From: Streptococcus ilei | GTDB taxonomy: Bacteria > Bacillota > Bacilli > Lactobacillales > Streptococcaceae | DNA length: 64,000 nt | Reading direction: 5' to 3' | Assembly (NCBI RefSeq): GCF_000479335.1 | Contig: NC_022584.1 | Coordinates: forward strand, 1,302,001 to 1,366,000 | Part shown: positions 12,344-35,120 of the stretch, piece by piece | How the letters are laid out: each line of letters begins with the position of its first letter | Position numbering within the stretch: position 1 is the first letter of the stretch | Notes under the pieces: generated by a model | What the model was told of the DNA's origin: nothing | Database searches by the model: none | Seen by the model: only the letters and a program-made list of their open reading frames with translations | Position numbers and translations under genes: made by a program

Positions 12344-12898
12344 CTAGTCCGTATGATAATCATTTTTCTTATTCTCAATCACCCGTATCGCCGCCTTGAT
12401 CACGTGAAACTCATTTAGCAGTTCTTCCAAATGCTGGTAATTCCGATCGCTGAGAGCCCCCTTCTTAAGGGTTTGAGACAAGCTATAAAATCGATCCAGA
12501 TGCTCTTCAATATTGGCTAGTAACTCTTTGGCTTCTTTCAAGCGATAGCGATTCAGGAGCTTGCTTTGACTATGTTTATAGGCTAGCACATTCTCACGAT
12601 GAATATCTTGACAGGCCTCCTTCTGCTCTTCATCCACCGTCAAATTGACAGCTTGGAAGCAGGTAATAAATTCCCGATTCTTCAGATCACACACAAAGAC
12701 GACACCGTCCTCTGCTACATAGGCTTCCGTATCGGGCCGTTGATCAAAACTGCTATCAAAATGATGAAGCGAGGGCACGTGTTGATTGACCCAGCGTCTC
12801 AACTGATCTTCATCGACTCCAAATCGTTCCATTGCTCTTTCTTTAAAGTGAGCTCGACAGCTATATTCATGTGCATACGGCAATCCCACTGCCCTCAC
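12344..12898 (-). CDS. Conserved hypothetical protein, 184 residues
   Basis: I do not recognise the family. The protein is soluble, with no signal peptide or membrane segment. Residues 1-95 look like a small alpha/beta domain (a HFKERAMERFG segment near 17-27, then alternating strands including VVFVCDLKNREF). Residues 95-184 are charged and helical, probably coiled coil. The start appears to be a GTG at 12898. It lies only 25 nt after the terminator hairpin of the structured RNA at 12922-13335, and no separate promoter is visible in the gap. It may therefore be expressed by read-through, making that RNA its leader. Confidence 0.6.
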   Translation of the reverse strand: MRAVGLPYAHEYSCRAHFKERAMERFGVDEDQLRRWVNQHVPSLHHFDSSFDQRPDTEAYVAEDGVVFVCDLKNREFITCFQAVNLTVDEEQKEACQDIHRENVLAYKHSQSKLLNRYRLKEAKELLANIEEHLDRFYSLSQTLKKGALSDRNYQHLEELLNEFHVIKAAIRVIENKKNDYHTD

Positions 12899-12921
12899 CT
12901 CGACTTTCTACCATGACAGAC

Positions 12922-12955
12922 AAAAAGACCTCCAGTCTTACGGGACTAGAGGTCT
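12922..12955 (-). terminator. Strong terminator at the 3' end of the structured RNA
   Basis: On the minus strand AGACCTC-T-AGTC pairs with GACT-G-GAGGTCT around CCGTAA, followed by TTTT. It ends just before the GTG start of the 184-residue gene, so it could also work as an attenuator. Confidence 0.8.
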
Positions 12956-13283
12956 GGTCTGCTTCACTGACAAGAGGCGATTAACCATTTAGGCTAACGA
13001 AAACAACAGTTATGATTTTCATTTCTATTCATGGTACGTTTTTACATACCAGTGGTTTTCTTTGCAATTTCTCTTTCAGTTTTGTTACAAAGCACTCAGT
13101 TGAGCATACCGAAGTTCGAAAACCATCTAAAGCTTCCACTACTATTTCCACGTATTTCAATGTCATTTAGTAAGTTAAGCAGACTTACTTGACGGCTCAA
13201 CCGATTTAACATTTCCGACGTTCTAGCTTTTTTATAAAAAGCACAATCAAGTGTCAGCGAAGACAGACCTAAAGCGAAGTAAC

Positions 13284-13307
13284 CTAATGTATGAATCTAT
13301 AAGGCAT
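13284..13307 (-). CDS. Possible seven-residue leader peptide
   Basis: ATG at 13307 opens a short frame (MPYRFIH) with AAGGGG 9 nt upstream, near the 5' end of the candidate RNA. The spacing suits translation, but the frame is too short to exclude chance. Confidence 0.25.
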   Translation of the reverse strand: MPYRFIH

Positions 13308-13341
13308 TGGTATCAACCCCTTCTCCCTTATCTTCACCTAT

Positions 13342-13370
13342 AGTATACTCCTTTAATATCGGTATTGCAA
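13342..13370 (-). promoter_or_regulatory. Promoter of the structured RNA
   Basis: TTGCAA (13370-13365), 17-bp spacer and TATACT (13347-13342) on the minus strand. Predicted transcription start is near 13335. Confidence 0.72.
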
Positions 13371-13379
13371 GCGATTACA
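13365..13379. promoter_or_regulatory. Consensus cre (CcpA) site over the -35 box
   Basis: TTGCAAGCGATTACA fits the cre consensus WTGNAANCGNWWNCA at every fixed position and overlaps the -35 element of the RNA promoter. In streptococci CcpA bound at such a position normally represses, so the RNA should respond to carbon source. Confidence 0.65.
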
Positions 13380-13400
13380 CACTGAAACTAGTTTCTAAAT

Positions 13401-14159
13401 TTACTCAAAGAAACGGTAGTAATCAGACAAGGCCATCTTAGCCTTTTCCTCTTGATTCAAGTCCTGGATAATCTTTCCATCCTGCATAACAATCAAGCGA
13501 TTTCCGTACTTGAGCGCATCCTCCATATGGTGGGTAATCATCAAGGCAGTCAGTCGATCTGTTTTGACAAAATGATCCGTCAGCTCCATCAAGGATTGAC
13601 TCGTCTTGGGATCGAGCGCAGCTGTATGTTCGTCCAAGAGTAAGAGTTCAGGTCGTTTCAGGGTAGCCATCAAAAGGCTCAGAGCTTGCCGTTGCCCGCC
13701 AGATAAGAATTCTACCGCCGTATCGACATGCCTCTCTAAACCATTGCCAATCTGGCTCAAAACCTCTTTAAATTCGTCTTTGTACTGGGCAAGGCGACGA
13801 GGAACCAAACCCCGCTTTTCTCCTCGGAATTTTGCAATCAGGAGATTTTCAGCCACTGTCATACGAGGCGCTGTCCCCATCTTTGGATCTTGGAAGACAC
13901 GGGATAGGTATTTTGCTCGTTTTTCTGGACCATAGTGAGTCACATCCTCTCCCTTGATCAAGATTTGACCACTCGTCAGCGGAAGGGTCCCAGCCAAGGT
14001 ATTGAAGAGAGTTGACTTCCCAGCACCATTGCCCCCAAGAATGGTGATAAAGTCATGCTCATGAATCTCCAAAGAGACATTATCCAAAATGACTTTTTCT
14101 TCATTCAAGCCATTATTCACCACTATGGTGGCATTTTTTAATTCTATAATTGCGGTCAT
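13401..14159 (-). CDS. ABC transporter ATP-binding protein (TrpZ-like)
   Basis: 252 residues. Walker A is GGNGAGKST (42-50), the ABC signature LSGGQRQ lies near 151, and Walker B LLLLDEHT near 171-178. Its ATG overlaps the permease stop in ATGA, so the two are translationally coupled. The permease partner belongs to the group that includes the streptococcal tryptophan importer TrpXYZ; the assignment to tryptophan is by family resemblance. The gene lacks an obvious terminator and could be read through into the structured RNA. Confidence 0.85.
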   Translation of the reverse strand: MTAIIELKNATIVVNNGLNEEKVILDNVSLEIHEHDFITILGGNGAGKSTLFNTLAGTLPLTSGQILIKGEDVTHYGPEKRAKYLSRVFQDPKMGTAPRMTVAENLLIAKFRGEKRGLVPRRLAQYKDEFKEVLSQIGNGLERHVDTAVEFLSGGQRQALSLLMATLKRPELLLLDEHTAALDPKTSQSLMELTDHFVKTDRLTALMITHHMEDALKYGNRLIVMQDGKIIQDLNQEEKAKMALSDYYRFFE

Positions 14160-15190: not shown

Positions 15191-18100
15191 TTAGTCTTCG
15201 TTTTTCTTGCGTCTTGCAAGGCCAGCCAGTCCAACCAAACCAAGAGCAGCGCCTAACAATGCAGCAGAAGCTGATTGTTCTTCACCAGTAGAAGGAAGTT
15301 CTGGTGCTGGCGGTGTTACCGGTGGTGTTGGTGGTGTCACCGGTGGTGTTGGTGGTGTTACTGGTGGTGTTGGTGGTGTCACCGGTGGTGTTGGTGGTGT
15401 TACCGGTGGTGTTGGTGGTGTCACCGGTGGTGTTGGTGGTGTTACTGGTGGTTTCGGTGGAATTACCTTGTTGTTGAACTCAGTATCTTCCGGTAATTGA
15501 GAAGTTGCTGTTAAGACTTTGCCTTCTTTAGTAACTGTTACTGTTACTGTAGCTACCATCTTATCGTATTCAACTCCTGCTTCAGTACCTTTAACCTCTT
15601 CCACAGTGTAAGTGTAAGTTTTAGTTTCTTCATCTCCACGTTTGAACTCTAATGCAGAGAACTTGATGTTTCCTGATGCATCGTTCTTAACTGTTTCGAT
15701 AACTTTTCCATCTTTATCTTTAAGTACGAAGCTAAATTCACCTTCTTTTAGCTCACGTCCTTCAAGTTTCTTAGTGAAGTTAAATTCAACTTTAGTTGGG
15801 ATGTTAACGACACGTTTTTCTGTTGGTTTCTCTGGTTTTTCAACAGATTTCTTAGTTGGATCGTATTGGTGAACAGTTTGTGAAGCAGTGTTTTCGATAT
15901 CTACACCATCTTTAGCTGTTGCTTTGATAGTTGCAGGGATCTCAAACTTGTAGTAACGTCCGAATGCCAATTTAGCAGTGTCGATTACTGGAGTGTTTTC
16001 TGCGTCTCCAAGTGACTTAGTCAAGTCTGTCTTAGAAGTTGCAGTAATCACACCATTTTCAACCTTGATATCAAATTTAGCTGTCACATCTTCTCCTGTT
16101 ACAGAGTCGTATGCTTTAATTTCTGCTACGTTGACGTCTAAGTTTTCGCTGTCATATTTATCTGTTACACCTACAGATTGAATATTGTGCGCTTCAGTGA
16201 ACTTAGTTGTATCCAACCATACTTGGTAGTATACTTTATCACCCTTCTTAAGTGTCTTCGTATTGATATTTTGAGCTTCGTTGTTATCAACCTTATCGGC
16301 ATATGGATCTTTATTAGTATCCGCTACCTTGTCTGCTAACTCTTTATCGTCGTCAACAAGTTTGTCACCTGTAATATCGAATTTAGATTCATTCAGGATA
16401 TACTTCTCTGGGTTGAACTCTGGAGTTTCTGGAGGAGTTACACGGTTGTTAAATTCTTTATCCGCAATGTCGCCTACAGTAGCTACAAGAACTTTAGCTG
16501 TTCCATCGTGAGAAACAGTTACTGTTACATTCGCTTTCATGGTGTCGTATGTAACGGTTGCGTCGCTTCCTTTAACTTCTTCTACTGTGTAGTTGTGAAC
16601 GCCTTCTTGTCCTTTCTTGAATTCAAGTGCTGAGAACTTAACGTTTCCTGCCGCATCATTGCTTACAGTTTCAAGAGTCTTACCTTCTGAATCTTTAAGC
16701 ACGAAGCTGAATTCGTTGGCTTGAAGTTCGCGTCCTTCCAACTTCTTAGTAAAGTTGAACTCAATTGAAACCGGTACGTTGTTTACACGTTTTTCAGTTG
16801 GTTTGCTTGGTTTTTCAACCTTCTTAGTAGTTGGGTTGTAGTAGTTAACTACTTGAGCCGCAGTATTTTCGATGTCTACACCACCAGGAACATCAGCTTT
16901 CACTGTTGTTGGGATGTCGAACTTGTAGTAACGTCCGAATGCGAATTTAGTTGTGTCAATGATTTGAGTGTTTTCTGCGTCGCCAAGTGACTTAGTGAAG
17001 CCAGCTTTAAGAGTTGCAGTAATCACACCATTGTTCACAGCGATATCGAATTTATCTGTTACTTCTGCACCTGTTACTGAGTCGTAGGCTTTGATCTTAG
17101 TAGAATCAAGATCCAACTTAGTTTCATCGTAGTCATCTGAGATTCCTACTGATTGGATGTTGTCCTTGTTCTTGGCATCAAACTTAGTTGTATCCAACCA
17201 TACTTGGTAAACCAACTTGTCGCCACGTTTCACAGTCTTGGTGTTCAAGTTTTGTTTTTCGTTGTTTGATGCATCATCCGCATATGGGTTCGCATTGGTA
17301 TCTGCGACCTTATCTGCCAACTCTTTGTCATCATCAACGAGCTTGTCGCCTGTGATATCGAATTTCTCTTCAGAAACAACGTATTTCTCTGGTTGGAACT
17401 TAGGTTCTTCTGGAGGACGAACAATATTGTTGAACTCTTTATCAGCAGGATCTGTCACGTTTGTGATCAAGGCTTTCGCTGTACCATCATGACGAACTTC
17501 AACTGTAACAACAGCTTTCATTGTATCGTATGTAACGGTTGCGTCTGTTCCTTTAACTTCTTCTACTGTGTACTTGTAGGTACCTTCTTGACCCTTCTTG
17601 TATTTAAGGGCAGTGACAGTTTCACCAGCTTTATTTGTGTACTCTACTGGAGAGAATTTAATCTTACCAGCTGCATCGTTGGTTGCAGTTGCGATCACAA
17701 CATTGTCGCTGTCTTTCAACTCGAATGTAAATTCGCCAGCTTTAAGCTCACGACCTTCCAATTTCTTAGTGAAGTTGAATTCTACTGAGATTGGAACACT
17801 GTTGACACGTTTTTCAGTTGGTTTGTTTGGTTTTTCAACAGTCTTACTTACTGGGTTGTAGTAGTTCACAACTTGTGCTGCCTTGTTTTCAATATCTGCA
17901 CCAGCTACAACATCGTCTTTCACTGTTGCTGGGATATCAAATTTATAGTAGCGTCCAAATTCGAATTTAGTTGTGTCAATGATTTGAGTGTTTTCTGCGT
18001 CGCCAAGTGACTTAGTGAAGCCATCTTTAAGAGTTGCAGTGATCACACCGTTGTCCACAGCGATATCGAATTTATCTGTTACTTCTGCACCTGTTACTGA

Positions 18101-21100
18101 GTCGTAGGCTTTGATCTTAGTAGAATCAAGATCCAACTTAGTTTCATCGTAGTTATCAGAGATTCCTACTGATTGGATGTTGTCCTTGTTAGCTGCGTCA
18201 AATTTAGTTGTATCCAACCATACTTGGTAAACCAACTTGTCGCCACGTTTCACAGTCTTAGTGTTCAAGTTTTCTTTTTCGTTGTTTGATGCATCGTCCG
18301 CATATGGGTTCGCATTTGTATCTGCGTACTTGTCTGCCAATTCTTTGTCATCATCAACGAGCTTGTCGCCTGTGATATCGAATTTCTCTTCAGAAACAAC
18401 GTATTTCTCTGGTTGGAACTTAGGTTCTTCCGGAGGAGTTACACGGTTGTTGAACTCTTTGTCTTCAGCGTCTGTTACGTTTGTAACTAATGCTTTAGCT
18501 GTTCCATCGTGAGATACTACAACTTTAACTGTAGCGACCATTGGGTCGTATGTTACAGTTGCATCACTTCCTACTACCTCTTCAACTGTGTAGTTGTAAG
18601 TTCCTTCTTGACCTTTCTTGAACTCAATAGCTGAGAATTTAACTTTTCCGTCAGCGTCGTTCTTAACTGTTTCAAGAACTTTACCGTCAGCATCTTTAAG
18701 TGTGAAGCTGAATTCTTGATCTTTAAGTTCACGACCTTCTAATTTCTTAGTGAAGTTGAATTCTACTGGTACTGGTACGTTGTTAACACGTTTTTGAGTA
18801 GGTTTTTCTGGAGTTTCAACCTTCTTAGTTGTTGGGTTGTAGTAGTTGACTACTTGTGCAGCAGTGTTTTCGATATCTACACCAGCTTTAACTGTTTGTT
18901 TAACTGTTGTTGGGATATCAAACTTGTAGTAACGTCCAAATTCGAATTTAGTTGTGTCGATCACTTGAGTGTTTTCTGCATCGCCAAGTGACTTAGTGAA
19001 GCCAGCTTTAAGAGTTGCAGTGATCACACCGTTGTTTTCAACGATATCAAATTTATCTGTTACATCATTACCAGATACTGAATCATAAGCTTTGATCTTA
19101 GTAACATCAAGTTCTAATTTAGCCTCATCGTAGTTATCAGAGATTCCTACAGATTGGATATTTTCTTTGTTGTCAGCTGAGAATTTAGTTGTATCTAACC
19201 ATACTTGGTAAACTAATTTATCTCCGCGGTTAACAGTCTTCGTATTGATGTTTTCTGCTTCGTTGTTGTTAGCTTTGTCAACATATGGATCAGTATTTGT
19301 ATCTCCGTACTTATCTGCCAACTCAGCATCATCATCAAGAAGCTTGTTATCAGTGATAGAGTATTTCTCTGTATTCAATACATACTTCTCTGGTTGGAAC
19401 TTAGGTTCTGTTGGAGGAGTTACTGTATTGTTGAACTCTTTATCTGCAATATCTCCAAGATTTGCCACAAGAGCTTTAGCTGTACCATCGTGTGAAACTG
19501 TGATGGTTACATTTGCTTTCATAGTATCGTAGGTAACGGTTGCGTCGTTTCCTTTAACTTCTTCTACTGTGTAGTTATGAACGCCTTCTTGACCCTTCTT
19601 GAATGTAAGAGTTGAGAACTTAACGTTTCCTGCCGCATCGTTGCTTACTGTTTCAACAACTTTACCAGTTGAATCTTTAAGAACGAAGCTGAATTCGTTA
19701 GCTTTCAACTCACGGCCTTCCAATTTCTTAGTGAAGTTGAATTCAACTGAGATTGGTACGTTGTTTACACGTTTTTCAGTTGGTTTGTTTGGTTTTTCAA
19801 CAGTCTTGCTTATTGGGTTGTAGTAGTTCACTACTTGAGCTGCAGTATTTTCGATGTCTGCTCCACCTGGTACATCAGCTTTAACTGTTGCTGGGATATC
19901 GAATTTGTAGTAACGTTCAAATGCAAACTTAGTTGTGTCAATGATTTGAGTATTTTCTGCATCACCCAATGACTTAGTGAAGCCAGCTTTAAGGGTTGCA
20001 GTCATTACACCATTTTCAACTTTAATATCGAATTTGTTTGTTACATCGTCACCAGTTACTGAGTCGTAAGCTTTGATCTTAGTAGAATTTACATCAACTT
20101 TTGTTTCATCGAAGTCATCAGTGATTCCTACTGATTGAACGTTTTCTTTGTTGTTAGCTGAGAATTTAGTTGTATCCAACCATACTTGGTAGTAGATCTT
20201 GTCTCCGCGGTTAACAGTCTTGGTATTGATGTTTTCTGCTTCGTTGTTGTTAGCTTTGTCAACATATGGATCAGTATTTGTATCTCCGTACTTATCTGCC
20301 AACTCAGCATCATCATCAAGAAGCTTGTTATCAGTGATAGAGTATTTCTCTGTATTCAATACATACTTCTCTGGTTGGAACTTAGGTTCTGTTGGAGGAG
20401 TTACTGTATTGTTGAACTCTTTATCTGCAATATCTCCAAGATTTGCCACAAGAGCTTTAGCTGTACCATCGTGTGAAACTGTGATGGTTACATTTGCTTT
20501 CATAGTATCGTAGGTAACGGTTGCGTCGTTTCCTTTAACTTCTTCTACTGTGTAGTTATGAACGCCTTCTTGACCCTTCTTGAATGTAAGAGTTGAGAAC
20601 TTAACGTTTCCTGCCGCATCGTTGCTTACTGTTTCAACAACTTTACCAGTTGAATCTTTAAGAACGAAGCTGAATTCGTTAGCTTTCAACTCACGGCCTT
20701 CCAATTTCTTAGTGAAGTTGAATTCAACTGAGATTGGTACGTTGTTTACACGTTTTTCAGTTGGTTTGTTTGGTTTTTCAACAGTCTTGCTTATTGGGTT
20801 GTAGTAGTTCACTACTTGAGCTGCAGTATTTTCGATGTCTGCTCCACCTGGTACATCAGCTTTAACTGTTGCTGGGATATCGAATTTGTAGTAACGTTCA
20901 AATGCAAACTTAGTTGTGTCAATGATTTGAGTATTTTCTGCATCACCCAATGACTTAGTGAAGCCAGCTTTAAGGGTTGCAGTCATTACACCATTTTCAA
21001 CTTTAATATCGAATTTGTTTGTTACATCGTCACCAGTTACTGAGTCGTAAGCTTTGATCTTAGTAGAATTTACATCAACTTTTGTTTCATCGAAGTCATC

Positions 21101-24100
21101 AGTGATTCCTACTGATTGAACGTTTTCTTTGTTGTTAGCTGAGAATTTAGTTGTATCCAACCATACTTGGTAGTAGATCTTGTCTCCGCGGTTAACAGTC
21201 TTGGTATTGATGTTTTCTGCTTCGTTGTTTGAAGTTCCATCAACATATGGATCAGTATTTGTTTCACCATATTTATCAGTCAACTCAGCATCATCATCAA
21301 GAAGTTTGTTATCAGTGATTGAGTATTTAGCTGTATTCAATACATACTTCTCTGGTTGGAACTTAGGTTCTGTTGGAGGAGTTACTGTATTGTTAAACTC
21401 TTTGTCAGCTGGTTCAGTTACGTCAGCAACCAATGCTTTAGCTGTACCGTCGTGAGATACTGTTACAGTTACTTCTGCCTTCATAGTATCGTAAGTGACA
21501 GTAGCGTCTGCACCTTTAACCTCTGTTACAGAGTAAGTGTAAGTACCTTCTTGACCCTTCTTGTATTTAAGGGCAGTGACTTTTTCACCAGCTTTATTTG
21601 TGTACTCTACTGGAGAGAATTTAATCTTACCATCTGCATCGTTGGTTACAGTCGCAATCACAACATTGTCGCTGTCTTTCAACTCAAATGTAAATTCGCC
21701 AGCTTTAAGCGCACGACCTTCCAAACGTTTTGTGAAGTTGAATTCTGCAGTGATTGGTACACTGTTCACACGTTTTTGAGTTGGTTTTTCTGGAGTTTCT
21801 ACAGATTTGCTTACTGGGTTGTATACGTGAACGATTTGGTTGGCTTTGTTTTCGATGTCTACTCCACCTGCTACTGATTCTTTAACAGTTGCTGGGATAT
21901 CGAATTTGTAGTAGCGACCAAATGCAAATTTAGTGGTGTCGATAACTTGAGTGTTATCAGCATCACCTAAAGATTTGTTCATAGAAGATTTAGATGTAGC
22001 TGTAATGACTCCGTTAGATACTGTAATATCAAATTTAGATGTTACATCAACTCCTGTTTCGCTGTCATAAGCCTTGATATCAGCACTGTTAACAGTCAAT
22101 TTATCTGCATCGTATGTATCAGAGATACCTACAGATTGGATGTTGTTCTTGTCAGTGAAGTTCTTAGTATCCAACCATACTTGGTAAACTAATTTATCAC
22201 CGCGGTTAACAGTCTTGGTATTGATGTTTTCTGCTTCGTTGTTCTTGGTTTGATCAGCATATGGATTTGCATTTGTTTCTGTGTACTCATCCTGAAGCTC
22301 ATCGTCATCGTCCATTAATTTTGTACCTGTTAGGTCAAATTTTTCTTTGTTAAGGACGAATTTTTCTGGTTGGAACTCAGGTGTTTCCGGAGGAGTGATT
22401 TTGTTGTTGAATACTTTATCTTCCTTACCATCAGTTGATGCTCCGTTATCATCTACACCACCAGTTGATGATACGCTTGTTACTGTAGTAAGTGTATGAC
22501 CGTTCTTAGCAACCTTAACTGTAATAGTTGCCTTCATCGTATCGTAAGTCATACCAACTTCTTTCGTTGCTGGAATAACTTCTTCTACAGTATAGGTATG
22601 TGTGCCAATTTTCGTATTGTCAAATGACAATTCAGTAAATGTCACTGTACCATCTTTTTTGTTGGCAACAGTTTCAACTTCTTGACCTCTTGAATCTTTA
22701 AGAACAAAGTTGAATTCTCCGTCTTTAAGTTCACGTCCAGCCAATTTCTTACTGAAGTCAAACTTAGTCTTAACTGGTGCTACAACATAGTTGTTGAAGA
22801 TTTTATCTTCATCACCTGACTTGAATCCACCTTCAGCACTGTATTTAACAGTAGCTTGTAAATCACCTTGAGCATTTTCAGTTACCTTAACAGTCATGGT
22901 AACAGTCATTGCATCGTATTCAACGTTTGCATCTGAACCTGGAGTCTCAGTGATTGTGTAAGTGTAAGTACCAACTTTGTTAAAGGTAAGTTTGCTAAAT
23001 GTAGCTTTACCATCTTTATTGGTAACTGTTTCTTCATGTTTATCAGGGCTGCTGCTCTTTTCTGTTAACTTGAAAGTAAACTCACCGTCAACAAGTACAC
23101 GTCCTTCCAATTGTTTTTCAACTTCTGGAGTAACTTCGACTGGCTCTTGTTTTACATAGTAGTAAACAGTCGGTTTATATGGTGTTAACGAGTTTAATAA
23201 GTCAACGTTTGTACCAATTTGTACATATGCACCATTTGTTAATTGACTATTTGGTGAAAGGTGACCAATGTTATCTCCCAAGAATGGAACGAAGACAGTC
23301 TTCTTCGGTGTGTATCCAGCAGCTGTTTGGAAGTCAAATGAAACTTCTTTCCCGTCTGGATAGTTTACACCTTTACTATCTGTGAAAGGAATGGTGTGAA
23401 GTGGTGATTTCTTAACTGCTAATTCTTGTTTGTTATAATCACCTGGTTTAATCGGCTTGGTTTCTGCTAACAACATGTAGCCATCTGTTTCCAATGTGCC
23501 ATCAGAACGTTTACTTTGTTGTTTTGGATCAAGAAGATAAACACGAACTACTACTGATCCATCTTCACCTACGATTTCTTTAATCCGTTTAATTCCTGCA
23601 CGCTCAGCGTCCATGAATTTAGTACCAACTACGTAAGGACGACTTACAAAGCCAGTTGTCGAATCTGGATTTGCTGTTTGGTAAAGTTTGTATCCATCAA
23701 ATTGACGCTCACCAGACGCTGTGAAATGTTGTCCTTCCATAGCTTTAGTTGCATATTTAGCTAAATCAACTTCATTACCATTTGGTACGTAGTCTTGAAC
23801 TGTTACATCAGTTTTATTTGCATTGAATGTAGCATTATTTTTATCGACTACTCTATAGTAAGTCGGTTTTTCGACAAATTTTGGAATTTTAGCGTTTGAA
23901 TCAGTAATTGTACGACCGTTATAAGCTGGTTCCACAACGTTAATAATATCAGTTGATGTACGAGCGTTATAAACATCTTGATATAATTTTTGTTCAGCTT
24001 CATTTTTTGGATTTACTAAAGCTTGAATACTAGCACCAACTTCATAACCAAATTGAATAAATGGTTCGTCAGTTTTACCAGCTCCTGCTCCTAAACCTTT

Positions 24101-25027
24101 GTCGTAATCATATTTCACAGTTAATTGACCATTAGAGGCCGCAGTTGTAGTTGTGAATTTTTGAATACCGCTTGACGCAGAAAGAGTTCTAGTTTCTACT
24201 ACATTACCAGTAGTTTTATCAATTAATTCAACAGTTGTTTCTGTAGAATCATCAAATCTTTTATACGCACGGGTATAATAATTTGTATTATATCTCTCAT
24301 TGAAGCGAGTAAGGTCTATGATACTGTAAGTATACACATCTCCTTCTTTTCTTGCGTACCCAGCTGGTACAGGTTGAGAGCTTACAGTTGCCCCATTAGC
24401 ATCTTTAATTTCTGGAGTTACTTTTTCCCCATCTTTTAAGTAAGTGCTTACTGCTACTGGGTTAGAGTTGTGGTCTCCAGTAACAGCTTCGTTAGTAACA
24501 GCACGACGATTACGTACTCTTGGTTTGTTTGATTCATGTGAAGCTGGTTTTGCTTCAGCTGCTGGTTTTACTTCAGGTGCAGCTGGTTTTGCTTCTTCAG
24601 CTTTTTCTGCTGGTTTGGCAGTTTCTTCTGCAGTAACACCTGCTTCAGCAACTGCTGGTTTTGCAACCACTTCTGCTTTTGGAGTTGCTTCTACAGCTGG
24701 TTTTGCTTCAGGTGCGGCTGGAGTTTCAGTCGCAGCTTTTGCCTCAGCTGCTAAAGCAGGGTTTGGAAGCTCCACTTTAGGTGCAGGTGCTCCCTGAGCG
24801 TAAGTCTCACCTGGAGCTGTAGTAGCAGTATCTTGAGGCGCTTGGTCAGCCTCGGGTTGAACGCTTTCTACAGTTTCCTTGCTTGTGTCAGTAGACGCAC
24901 TAACTCCATCCGCAGCTACTGTCGGAGCTCCGACAGCAAAAAGCGCTGTCCCTAGTAATACAGAACAAACGCCAACGCTATACTTTCGCAAAGAAAAGCG
25001 CTGACGTCTATTAAACATTTCCTTCAT
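15191..25027 (-). CDS. Giant YSIRK/LPxTG adhesin with alternating isopeptide domains
   Basis: 3278 residues. The N-terminus has a YSIRK-type signal (FSLRKYSVGVCSVLLG near residues 11-26). Then follow an Ala/Pro/Lys/Glu-rich stalk (about 75-185), a unique likely binding region (about 190-630), and a long repeat region. That region alternates two modules: nine pilin-type domains with the motif LEGRxLKxxEFxFxLKD, and seven domains like the AgI/II (SspB) C2 isopeptide domain, opening with PEKYVLN or similar. Lys in the TKKLEGR segment and Asn in EFNN are placed as in Spy0128-type intramolecular Lys-Asn bonds. A Pro/Thr/Val spacer of PPTPPVT units (about 3189-3240) precedes LPSTGE (about 3243-3248), a membrane segment and basic tail. 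Predicted role: an extended, protease-resistant, sortase-anchored adhesin. Start ATG at 25027 has AAGGAG 10 nt upstream; a second in-frame ATG three codons later is also plausible. Confidence 0.93.
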   Translation of the reverse strand: MKEMFNRRQRFSLRKYSVGVCSVLLGTALFAVGAPTVAADGVSASTDTSKETVESVQPEADQAPQDTATTAPGETYAQGAPAPKVELPNPALAAEAKAATETPAAPEAKPAVEATPKAEVVAKPAVAEAGVTAEETAKPAEKAEEAKPAAPEVKPAAEAKPASHESNKPRVRNRRAVTNEAVTGDHNSNPVAVSTYLKDGEKVTPEIKDANGATVSSQPVPAGYARKEGDVYTYSIIDLTRFNERYNTNYYTRAYKRFDDSTETTVELIDKTTGNVVETRTLSASSGIQKFTTTTAASNGQLTVKYDYDKGLGAGAGKTDEPFIQFGYEVGASIQALVNPKNEAEQKLYQDVYNARTSTDIINVVEPAYNGRTITDSNAKIPKFVEKPTYYRVVDKNNATFNANKTDVTVQDYVPNGNEVDLAKYATKAMEGQHFTASGERQFDGYKLYQTANPDSTTGFVSRPYVVGTKFMDAERAGIKRIKEIVGEDGSVVVRVYLLDPKQQSKRSDGTLETDGYMLLAETKPIKPGDYNKQELAVKKSPLHTIPFTDSKGVNYPDGKEVSFDFQTAAGYTPKKTVFVPFLGDNIGHLSPNSQLTNGAYVQIGTNVDLLNSLTPYKPTVYYYVKQEPVEVTPEVEKQLEGRVLVDGEFTFKLTEKSSSPDKHEETVTNKDGKATFSKLTFNKVGTYTYTITETPGSDANVEYDAMTVTMTVKVTENAQGDLQATVKYSAEGGFKSGDEDKIFNNYVVAPVKTKFDFSKKLAGRELKDGEFNFVLKDSRGQEVETVANKKDGTVTFTELSFDNTKIGTHTYTVEEVIPATKEVGMTYDTMKATITVKVAKNGHTLTTVTSVSSTGGVDDNGASTDGKEDKVFNNKITPPETPEFQPEKFVLNKEKFDLTGTKLMDDDDELQDEYTETNANPYADQTKNNEAENINTKTVNRGDKLVYQVWLDTKNFTDKNNIQSVGISDTYDADKLTVNSADIKAYDSETGVDVTSKFDITVSNGVITATSKSSMNKSLGDADNTQVIDTTKFAFGRYYKFDIPATVKESVAGGVDIENKANQIVHVYNPVSKSVETPEKPTQKRVNSVPITAEFNFTKRLEGRALKAGEFTFELKDSDNVVIATVTNDADGKIKFSPVEYTNKAGEKVTALKYKKGQEGTYTYSVTEVKGADATVTYDTMKAEVTVTVSHDGTAKALVADVTEPADKEFNNTVTPPTEPKFQPEKYVLNTAKYSITDNKLLDDDAELTDKYGETNTDPYVDGTSNNEAENINTKTVNRGDKIYYQVWLDTTKFSANNKENVQSVGITDDFDETKVDVNSTKIKAYDSVTGDDVTNKFDIKVENGVMTATLKAGFTKSLGDAENTQIIDTTKFAFERYYKFDIPATVKADVPGGADIENTAAQVVNYYNPISKTVEKPNKPTEKRVNNVPISVEFNFTKKLEGRELKANEFSFVLKDSTGKVVETVSNDAAGNVKFSTLTFKKGQEGVHNYTVEEVKGNDATVTYDTMKANVTITVSHDGTAKALVANLGDIADKEFNNTVTPPTEPKFQPEKYVLNTEKYSITDNKLLDDDAELADKYGDTNTDPYVDKANNNEAENINTKTVNRGDKIYYQVWLDTTKFSANNKENVQSVGITDDFDETKVDVNSTKIKAYDSVTGDDVTNKFDIKVENGVMTATLKAGFTKSLGDAENTQIIDTTKFAFERYYKFDIPATVKADVPGGADIENTAAQVVNYYNPISKTVEKPNKPTEKRVNNVPISVEFNFTKKLEGRELKANEFSFVLKDSTGKVVETVSNDAAGNVKFSTLTFKKGQEGVHNYTVEEVKGNDATVTYDTMKANVTITVSHDGTAKALVANLGDIADKEFNNTVTPPTEPKFQPEKYVLNTEKYSITDNKLLDDDAELADKYGDTNTDPYVDKANNNEAENINTKTVNRGDKLVYQVWLDTTKFSADNKENIQSVGISDNYDEAKLELDVTKIKAYDSVSGNDVTDKFDIVENNGVITATLKAGFTKSLGDAENTQVIDTTKFEFGRYYKFDIPTTVKQTVKAGVDIENTAAQVVNYYNPTTKKVETPEKPTQKRVNNVPVPVEFNFTKKLEGRELKDQEFSFTLKDADGKVLETVKNDADGKVKFSAIEFKKGQEGTYNYTVEEVVGSDATVTYDPMVATVKVVVSHDGTAKALVTNVTDAEDKEFNNRVTPPEEPKFQPEKYVVSEEKFDITGDKLVDDDKELADKYADTNANPYADDASNNEKENLNTKTVKRGDKLVYQVWLDTTKFDAANKDNIQSVGISDNYDETKLDLDSTKIKAYDSVTGAEVTDKFDIAVDNGVITATLKDGFTKSLGDAENTQIIDTTKFEFGRYYKFDIPATVKDDVVAGADIENKAAQVVNYYNPVSKTVEKPNKPTEKRVNSVPISVEFNFTKKLEGRELKAGEFTFELKDSDNVVIATATNDAAGKIKFSPVEYTNKAGETVTALKYKKGQEGTYKYTVEEVKGTDATVTYDTMKAVVTVEVRHDGTAKALITNVTDPADKEFNNIVRPPEEPKFQPEKYVVSEEKFDITGDKLVDDDKELADKVADTNANPYADDASNNEKQNLNTKTVKRGDKLVYQVWLDTTKFDAKNKDNIQSVGISDDYDETKLDLDSTKIKAYDSVTGAEVTDKFDIAVNNGVITATLKAGFTKSLGDAENTQIIDTTKFAFGRYYKFDIPTTVKADVPGGVDIENTAAQVVNYYNPTTKKVEKPSKPTEKRVNNVPVSIEFNFTKKLEGRELQANEFSFVLKDSEGKTLETVSNDAAGNVKFSALEFKKGQEGVHNYTVEEVKGSDATVTYDTMKANVTVTVSHDGTAKVLVATVGDIADKEFNNRVTPPETPEFNPEKYILNESKFDITGDKLVDDDKELADKVADTNKDPYADKVDNNEAQNINTKTLKKGDKVYYQVWLDTTKFTEAHNIQSVGVTDKYDSENLDVNVAEIKAYDSVTGEDVTAKFDIKVENGVITATSKTDLTKSLGDAENTPVIDTAKLAFGRYYKFEIPATIKATAKDGVDIENTASQTVHQYDPTKKSVEKPEKPTEKRVVNIPTKVEFNFTKKLEGRELKEGEFSFVLKDKDGKVIETVKNDASGNIKFSALEFKRGDEETKTYTYTVEEVKGTEAGVEYDKMVATVTVTVTKEGKVLTATSQLPEDTEFNNKVIPPKPPVTPPTPPVTPPTPPVTPPTPPVTPPTPPVTPPTPPVTPPTPPVTPPAPELPSTGEEQSASAALLGAALGLVGLAGLARRKKNED
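19237..21233. repeat. Tandem 981-bp duplication inside the giant adhesin
   Basis: The sequence from about 19237 reappears 981 bp later with essentially no differences until about 20252/21233. It covers one SspB-like plus one pilin-like module (327 residues). Other module copies in the gene have clearly diverged, so this one is recent. Confidence 0.85.
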
Positions 25028-35074: not shown

Positions 35075-35103
35075 AGTATAGCACAGGAAAAACCTTTTTG
35101 CAA
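35075..35103 (-). promoter_or_regulatory. Promoter of the AIM24-family gene
   Basis: TTGCAA (35103-35098), 17-bp spacer and extended -10 TGCTATACT (TATACT at 35080-35075) on the minus strand. Confidence 0.7.
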
Positions 35104-35120
35104 ACGATTCCAAGATCTAG

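Follow-up and report, generated by a model that had tools for sequence, protein, structure and literature searches.

A large structured RNA of streptococci, probably repressed by CcpA and apparently of a new family

The locus and its transcription signals

The RNA gene described here occupies a gap on the minus strand of the 64-kb stretch of DNA that was analysed (hereafter, the window). The gap is flanked by an ABC transporter ATPase gene (13401-14159) and by a gene coding for a 184-aa protein, which has no Pfam match at E ≤ 0.001 and no NCBIfam match at E ≤ 0.01. Coordinates of all features are collected in Table 1. The first-pass annotation, made from the sequence of the window, had listed a promoter, a cre site over its -35 box, a strong terminator and a gene 25 nt downstream. 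All four were located, the start of the downstream reading frame lying 24 nt past the T run of the terminator.

Table 1. Features of the RNA locus, in window coordinates
Feature	Position	Strand	Basis or remark
Structured RNA gene, about 414 nt	12922..13335	minus	inferred ends, set by the -10 box (5') and the terminator (3'); homologues
Promoter TTGCAA-17-TATACT	13342..13370	minus	signal scan
cre site (candidate CcpA operator) across the -35 box	13365..13379		consensus match and homologues
Palindrome GAAACTAGTTTC, 12 bp, upstream of cre	13384..13395		sequence inspection
Intrinsic terminator, 12-bp stem followed by T's	12926..12955	minus	signal scan
Possible 7-codon ORF MPYRFIH behind the ribosome-site-like stretch AAGGGG	13284..13307	minus	sequence reading
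P1, 5' strand	13252..13269	minus	pairs with 12972-12956, one bulged base
P1, 3' strand	12956..12972	minus	alignment fold and covariation
P3, 5' strand	13195..13204	minus	pairs with 13105-13096
P3, 3' strand	13096..13105	minus	core-alignment prediction and covariation
P4 hairpin, 7-nt loop CTGCTTA	13166..13192	minus	alignment fold and covariation
P5 hairpin GAAGC...ACTTC, loop ATGGTTTTC (pseudoknot 5' strand)	13111..13136	minus	alignment fold
Pseudoknot 3' strand GAAAACCAC	13052..13060	minus	pairs with 13126-13118
P7 hairpin GTTAGCC...GGTTAAT	12980..12998	minus	alignment fold
184-aa protein gene	12344..12898	minus	start 24 nt past the T run; not part of the RNA gene

Taken alone, the promoter and the terminator are near chance: a simple scan of 1.5 kb found three promoter-like sites (2.4 expected) and two terminator-like sites (1.1 expected). 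The cre site of the window, TTGCAAGCGATTACA, fits the relaxed consensus WTGNAANCGNWNNCA, which is matched three times in the 64 kb against 0.55 expected; the other two matches are a single palindromic site counted on each strand. A palindromic second cre-like site is located at 35098-35113. The RNA locus stands far beyond chance because of its conservation, the coupling of cre and promoter, and the covariation across relatives.

Nowhere in the 64-kb window does an Rfam 15 family attain its gathering score, in agreement with the earlier statement that the RNA belongs to no recognised class. When positions 12700-13600 were compared with Rfam 15 at E ≤ 10, the sole match was a eukaryotic snoRNA model (E 0.66, 17.4 bits, cut-off 42). 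Matches at the gathering score were likewise absent from eight homologous loci of types A2, B, C, D, E and F and from three type G loci (types are defined below). RNase P RNA, tmRNA and 6S RNA were rejected as identities, each being located elsewhere in the same genome.

Relatives in Streptococcus and their gene neighbourhoods

Searches with an RNA model, a motif and DNA queries together found relatives of the RNA in 55 of 284 Streptococcus genomes, which is a lower bound, as not every weak match was opened. The relatives are about 400-560 nt long and fall into seven divergent types: A (the window and S. australis, with S. rubneri as A2), B (S. parasanguinis), C (S. sanguinis), D (one MAG), E (S. 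cristatus and S. sinensis), F (S. gordonii) and G (a further clade of five genomes). A DNA search of 197 genomes of the genus gave seven close relatives at 88-100% identity, the own genome included, and the same query gave nine more at 71-72% across nearly its full length, plus short matches. Six sequences served to build a covariance model of the 112-nt core, which matched 49 of the 284 genomes, all at E ≤ 4e-17, with search filters that can lose weak matches; 48 of these 49 carry one copy each. Cutting out the full-length RNA yielded 45 distinct sequences from 47 genomes and missed two of the model carriers (G249 and G133). These were opened separately, and both carry the RNA with a cre promoter.

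The motif scan of named genomes returned 43 stretches. Thirty-six are in Streptococcus (S. australis, S. rubneri, S. xiaochunlingii, S. parasanguinis, S. sanguinis, S. cristatus, S. sinensis, S. gordonii, one MAG and others), and the seven in other bacteria (L082, L083, L085, L093, L110, L116, L120) were judged by their flanks to be chance matches, a call that for L116, L120 and similar stretches rests on 190 bases only. Strains among the carriers are S. sanguinis SK355, SK49 and SK1, S. gordonii DD07 and several of S. parasanguinis. The S. gordonii form (G056), about 560 nt long and too diverged for the covariance model to report, adds one genome; used as a query, it led to the type G clade with five more. 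A fixed-spacing motif search with three mismatches allowed gave S. gordonii as the only new carrier, the pattern missing types A, B and G, which differ in spacing or letters. Motif matches in G205, G206 and G283 were discarded, having neither a pseudoknot partner nor an upstream cre. Six weak-match loci outside the carriers were also opened: three are cre promoters in front of ORFs, and the other three have no cre in the 120 bases inspected. An order-wide model search of 395 genomes from 80 genera (own genus included), run with filters that lose weak matches, gave 19 matches in Streptococcus and only one outside the genus, in another family (E 0.008), explained by chance.

Among 51 distinct homologues, 40 fit the relaxed cre WTGNAANCGNWNNCA and the other 11, including S. 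gordonii and all five type G sequences, deviate from it at one base. Of the 46 type A-F sequences, 36 carry the stricter form TGWNANCGNTNNCA. A cre site lying over a -35 box is well established to bring about repression by CcpA. A site placed as this one is would be able to block the promoter, as expected of regulation resembling that of RsaI (see below), and the RNA is probably CcpA-repressed. The palindrome GAAACTAGTTTC upstream of cre has the counterpart GGAACTAGTTTC in the displayed parasanguinis-type promoters and is absent from the displayed promoters of types other than australis and parasanguinis; perhaps it constitutes a second operator.

Gene neighbourhoods were read in 19 loci, with gene names that are mostly a reading of protein starts. 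The upstream neighbour is the transporter ATPase gene in the window, A2, B, D, part of E and F, an Asp23/CsbD-like stress cluster in C and part of E, and a U32-peptidase-like gene in G, with other genes at L070. Downstream, the 184-aa gene follows the RNA in the australis (window) and parasanguinis types, about 25-30 nt past the T run in the latter, and is itself followed by an RNase J-like gene. The RNase J-like gene comes directly next in A2, in one of the two C copies and in two of the three G loci. The downstream gene is Zn-dehydrogenase-like or fucosidase-like in E, pheS-like in F and, in D, a LacI-like regulator gene pointing towards the RNA. The S. rubneri locus (L079) keeps the RNA and lacks the 184-aa gene at that place; the 315 nt up to the next gene contain no ORF reaching 60 aa. 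The fixed association with one downstream gene or gene class that a leader or riboswitch would be expected to have is absent across these loci. Given these changing neighbours, and the retention of the RNA in S. rubneri where the 184-aa gene is missing, we regard the RNA as a free-standing gene.

Three further observations concern the neighbourhoods. The RNase J-like gene is a frequent, though not fixed, downstream neighbour (types A, A2, B, C and G; loci L071, L079, L080, L188 and L189). One genome (G048) has two identical sanguinis-type copies of the RNA (L071 and L072), separated by about 26 kb on the assumption of a circular contig; the copies share upstream sequence and each comes after the same Asp23-like gene, frame-broken in L072. 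In the window, an ORF of 3278 aa (15191-25027) with a signal-like start, long repeats and an LPSTG-type end reads as a giant surface protein.

Fold, covariation and coding potential

For the 414-nt strand, the fold energy is -122.8 kcal/mol (z -5.26), and none of 100 shuffles is as good. Single-sequence folds gave z-scores of -2.8 to -7.2 in each of the eight type A-F sequences that were folded (60 shuffles each) and of -3.3 and -4.1 in two type G sequences (40 shuffles each), again with no shuffle as good. Forty-five sequences were aligned with MAFFT, and RNAalifold was run on 17 of them, from types A-E. Unaided, it finds P1, P4, the helix that the P5 loop forms with a strand further downstream, P7 and the terminator; P3 was predicted on the core alignment A1 (six sequences). 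As the long-range helix of the P5 loop crosses P3, the two together form a pseudoknot, which is retained in all seven types. The place of P7 is taken by different hairpins in other types.

Covariation was assessed in two ways. In A1, 94.2% of the cells are paired, compared to 89.7% after shuffling and at most 50.6% when slid, and eight pairs have double changes; none of 500 shuffles reaches these two values, while the count of further pair types does not exceed that in shuffles (338 of 500 reach it). For P1, P3 and the pseudoknot, strands were placed by hand in 16 of the 51 sequences, covering all types, and pairing was compared with that after swapping strands between types. P1 is paired in 258 of 271 cells (58.6% after swapping), P3 in 162 of 176 (51.4%) and the pseudoknot in 138 of 144 (90.7%). 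Double changes were found at 15 of the 18 positions of P1 (one of the 18 is the bulge), at nine of 11 in P3 and at two of nine in the pseudoknot. The P4 count, from hand-placed helices in a set of 13 of 46 sequences, gave 93.3% of cells paired against 83.8% (12 sequences, types A-E), and P5 varies too little for a covariation test. Type F was omitted from alignment A3 and type G from A2 and A3, and F is misaligned at P3/P4 in A2.

The first-pass annotation had proposed at least three clean helices and possible pairing of the two ends. P1, P3, P4 and the pseudoknot are now backed by conservation and covariation, with compensatory changes keeping the helices in homologues. The end pairing is real, P1 having 95% of its cells paired versus 59% after swapping. 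Although paired, the pseudoknot core has many positions that never vary among types A-F, which suggests a constraint beyond pairing.

The RNAs of the window and of S. rubneri are 88% identical, compared to 40% at 222 fourfold sites of the flanking genes and 81% DNA identity for the two flanking transporter genes; judged from this pair, the RNA is under purifying selection. Between more distant types the RNA is 67-81% identical, with many gaps, and the genes 69-77%, so that the RNA is not more conserved than its flanking genes.

No reading frame is conserved across types, and homologues keep the helices. A protein-coding gene was rejected: stop-to-stop pieces shared between types measure only 10-39 aa, lie on both strands and are in differing frames (11 sequences with 76 segments gave 26 between-type matches), and in type D no sense segment exceeds 26 codons. 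Covarying helices together with no shared frame mark the product, as far as sequence comparison can tell, as a structured non-coding RNA.

A short ORF of 7-9 codons with an SD-like stretch is present near the 5' end in 24 of the 46 sequences of types A-F and in all five of type G. It is kept in types A, B, F and G, and none of the 22 type C, D and E sequences shows it. The predicted peptides are MPYRFIH in the window, MGFRNSNLF in S. gordonii, and MGIRTFIF and similar forms in type G. The same stretch can fold as a small hairpin instead.

Proposed role, alternatives and known systems

The reading we prefer is a stand-alone, structured, cre-controlled RNA, with a probability of roughly 0.8. Put most safely, it is a new family of large, structured, free-standing RNAs, probably repressed by CcpA. 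A stand-alone RNA under CcpA repression was also one of the two readings offered at the outset, and it is supported by the recurrence of cre, promoter and terminator in several gene neighbourhoods, the repression itself being a prediction from the operator. RNA polymerase would start near 13335 and stop at the terminator near 12922. With good sugars present, CcpA would occupy the cre over the -35 box and keep the promoter shut, and the RNA should rise once glucose runs out. P1 joins both ends and closes the RNA on itself, while P3 carries the P4 and P5 hairpins, with the P5 loop pairing to the downstream strand in the pseudoknot.

As the gene context varies, such an RNA would be expected to act in trans, presumably through its three-dimensional fold, with a protein or the ribosome as the most likely binding partner. 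Action by the fold rather than by simple antisense pairing is favoured because the letters that vary least belong to the paired core of the pseudoknot, not to an exposed seed; we propose it tentatively, at somewhat less than even odds. A fuller version would make it a new class of large pseudoknotted RNA, known so far from one genus, released from CcpA at sugar exhaustion, working in trans as an RNA-protein machine or a ribosome-directed factor and having a dual function through translation of the 7-9 codon ORF in four of the seven types. This version is speculative and, with all its parts, unlikely.

The RNA might instead be a base-pairing sRNA acting on mRNAs via exposed loops such as that of P4 (CUGCUUA), similar to RsaI but larger. 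CcpA control and the possession of its own promoter and terminator fit such a regulator, and the seven letters of the P4 loop are identical in the sequences of types A-E included in alignments A1 and A3. However, the loop is CCGCUUA in the sanguinis-type sequence of G133, which is outside these alignments, and a reading of the gordonii type finds no such loop; the most constant letters of types A-F sit inside the pseudoknot. A similarity search of the own genome at E ≤ 10 gave 21 matches besides the RNA itself, the best of them 18 nt long (E 0.06) and no better than chance, which is weak evidence, as the search is blind to short seeds. We consider base pairing as the main mode of action somewhat unlikely.

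The other reading offered by the first-pass annotation was a long 5' leader whose terminator serves as an attenuator for the 184-aa gene. The short distance to this gene, both in the window and in the displayed parasanguinis-type loci, speaks for it. Moreover, from the RNA promoter down to the 184-aa gene, no second promoter-like site showed up on the minus strand in the simple scan, so the gene may depend on read-through. However, S. rubneri keeps the RNA without this gene, and other genes lie downstream in the displayed sanguinis, cristatus, gordonii, MAG and type G loci, that of the MAG being directed towards the RNA. Judging from these loci, the general role cannot be that of a leader for one particular gene, and the leader reading as such finds no general support and is quite improbable. 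An extra role as a leader with an attenuator is possible in the australis and parasanguinis types, which have the 184-aa gene within about 25-30 nt of the RNA and in which leakage through the terminator may also feed this gene.

Similarly improbable is that the RNA is chiefly the mRNA of a small peptide, the product of the 5' ORF, with the remainder being a stable 3' part. The ORF with its SD-like stretch recurs in over half of the type A-F sequences and throughout type G, but types C, D and E keep the remaining RNA without it, the peptides diverge between types from the second residue on, and the ORF stretch has the hairpin as an alternative. A mobile or repeat element with a structure working at the DNA level, which the variable position and the two identical copies in G048 might recall, is hardly credible given the single copy in 48 of the 49 model carriers, the retained promoter and terminator, a core motif not found in viral contigs, a window RNA without a match in plasmids or phages, and the upstream sequence with the Asp23-like gene shared by L071 and L072, by which a segmental duplication explains the copies.

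Our preferred reading, the stand-alone cre-controlled RNA, has parallels among known regulators. RsaI of Staphylococcus aureus is reportedly a stand-alone RNA tied to CcpA and glucose limitation; it is about 144 nt long and pairs with mRNAs. The streptococcal RNA resembles it in being free-standing and, as predicted from its cre site, tied to CcpA and glucose, but is far larger, has a closing helix and a pseudoknot, and matches no Rfam family. SR1 of Bacillus subtilis also combines carbon control with a small ORF, its regulator being another one, its RNA smaller and its peptide longer; the streptococcal RNA shares the combination of predicted carbon control and small ORF and is set apart by having no Rfam match. 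6S RNA, tmRNA and RNase P RNA are large RNAs with paired ends like those of the new RNA, but occupy separate loci of the same genome. To our knowledge, few structured RNAs above 400 nt with strong covariation exist in bacteria, and several of those known still have no assigned function. Catabolite-controlled regulatory RNAs are a known kind, while the family and the architecture found here appear to be new.

The RNA resides in oral commensals amenable to laboratory work and offers a defined regulatory handle in cre, CcpA and glucose. Its helices are open to compensatory mutation, and the free-standing gene can be removed without touching its neighbours. How carbon state is translated into RNA-level control in oral streptococci becomes a directly testable question.

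A CcpA-regulated sRNA of S. aureus is cited as Bronesky 2019 in the available part of PMC8359418. Among streptococcal RNAs, the CiaR-dependent csRNAs are similarly stand-alone and variable in genome position, but in the accessible sections of PMC3091779 they measure 51-202 nt and belong to the CiaR regulon, unlike the RNA described here with its about 400-560 nt and cre promoter. The yjbJ motif of Streptococcus, described in the part seen of PMC11109978 as two hairpins upstream of a csbD/yjbJ gene, is another candidate RNA near such a gene, whereas the new RNA is found on the downstream side of a csbD-like gene in some of its types and at other places in the remaining ones. The RNA is not described in the literature searched, limited to open-licence papers, including the available portions of PMC11109978, PMC8632094, PMC4960207, PMC3091779, PMC3610829, PMC8359418, PMC3329508, PMC7160235 and PMC13219514. 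According to the part of PMC3329508 that was available, 87 putative sRNAs were reported in S. parasanguinis FW213; the transcript may be among these candidates and would then have been seen previously without being recognised.
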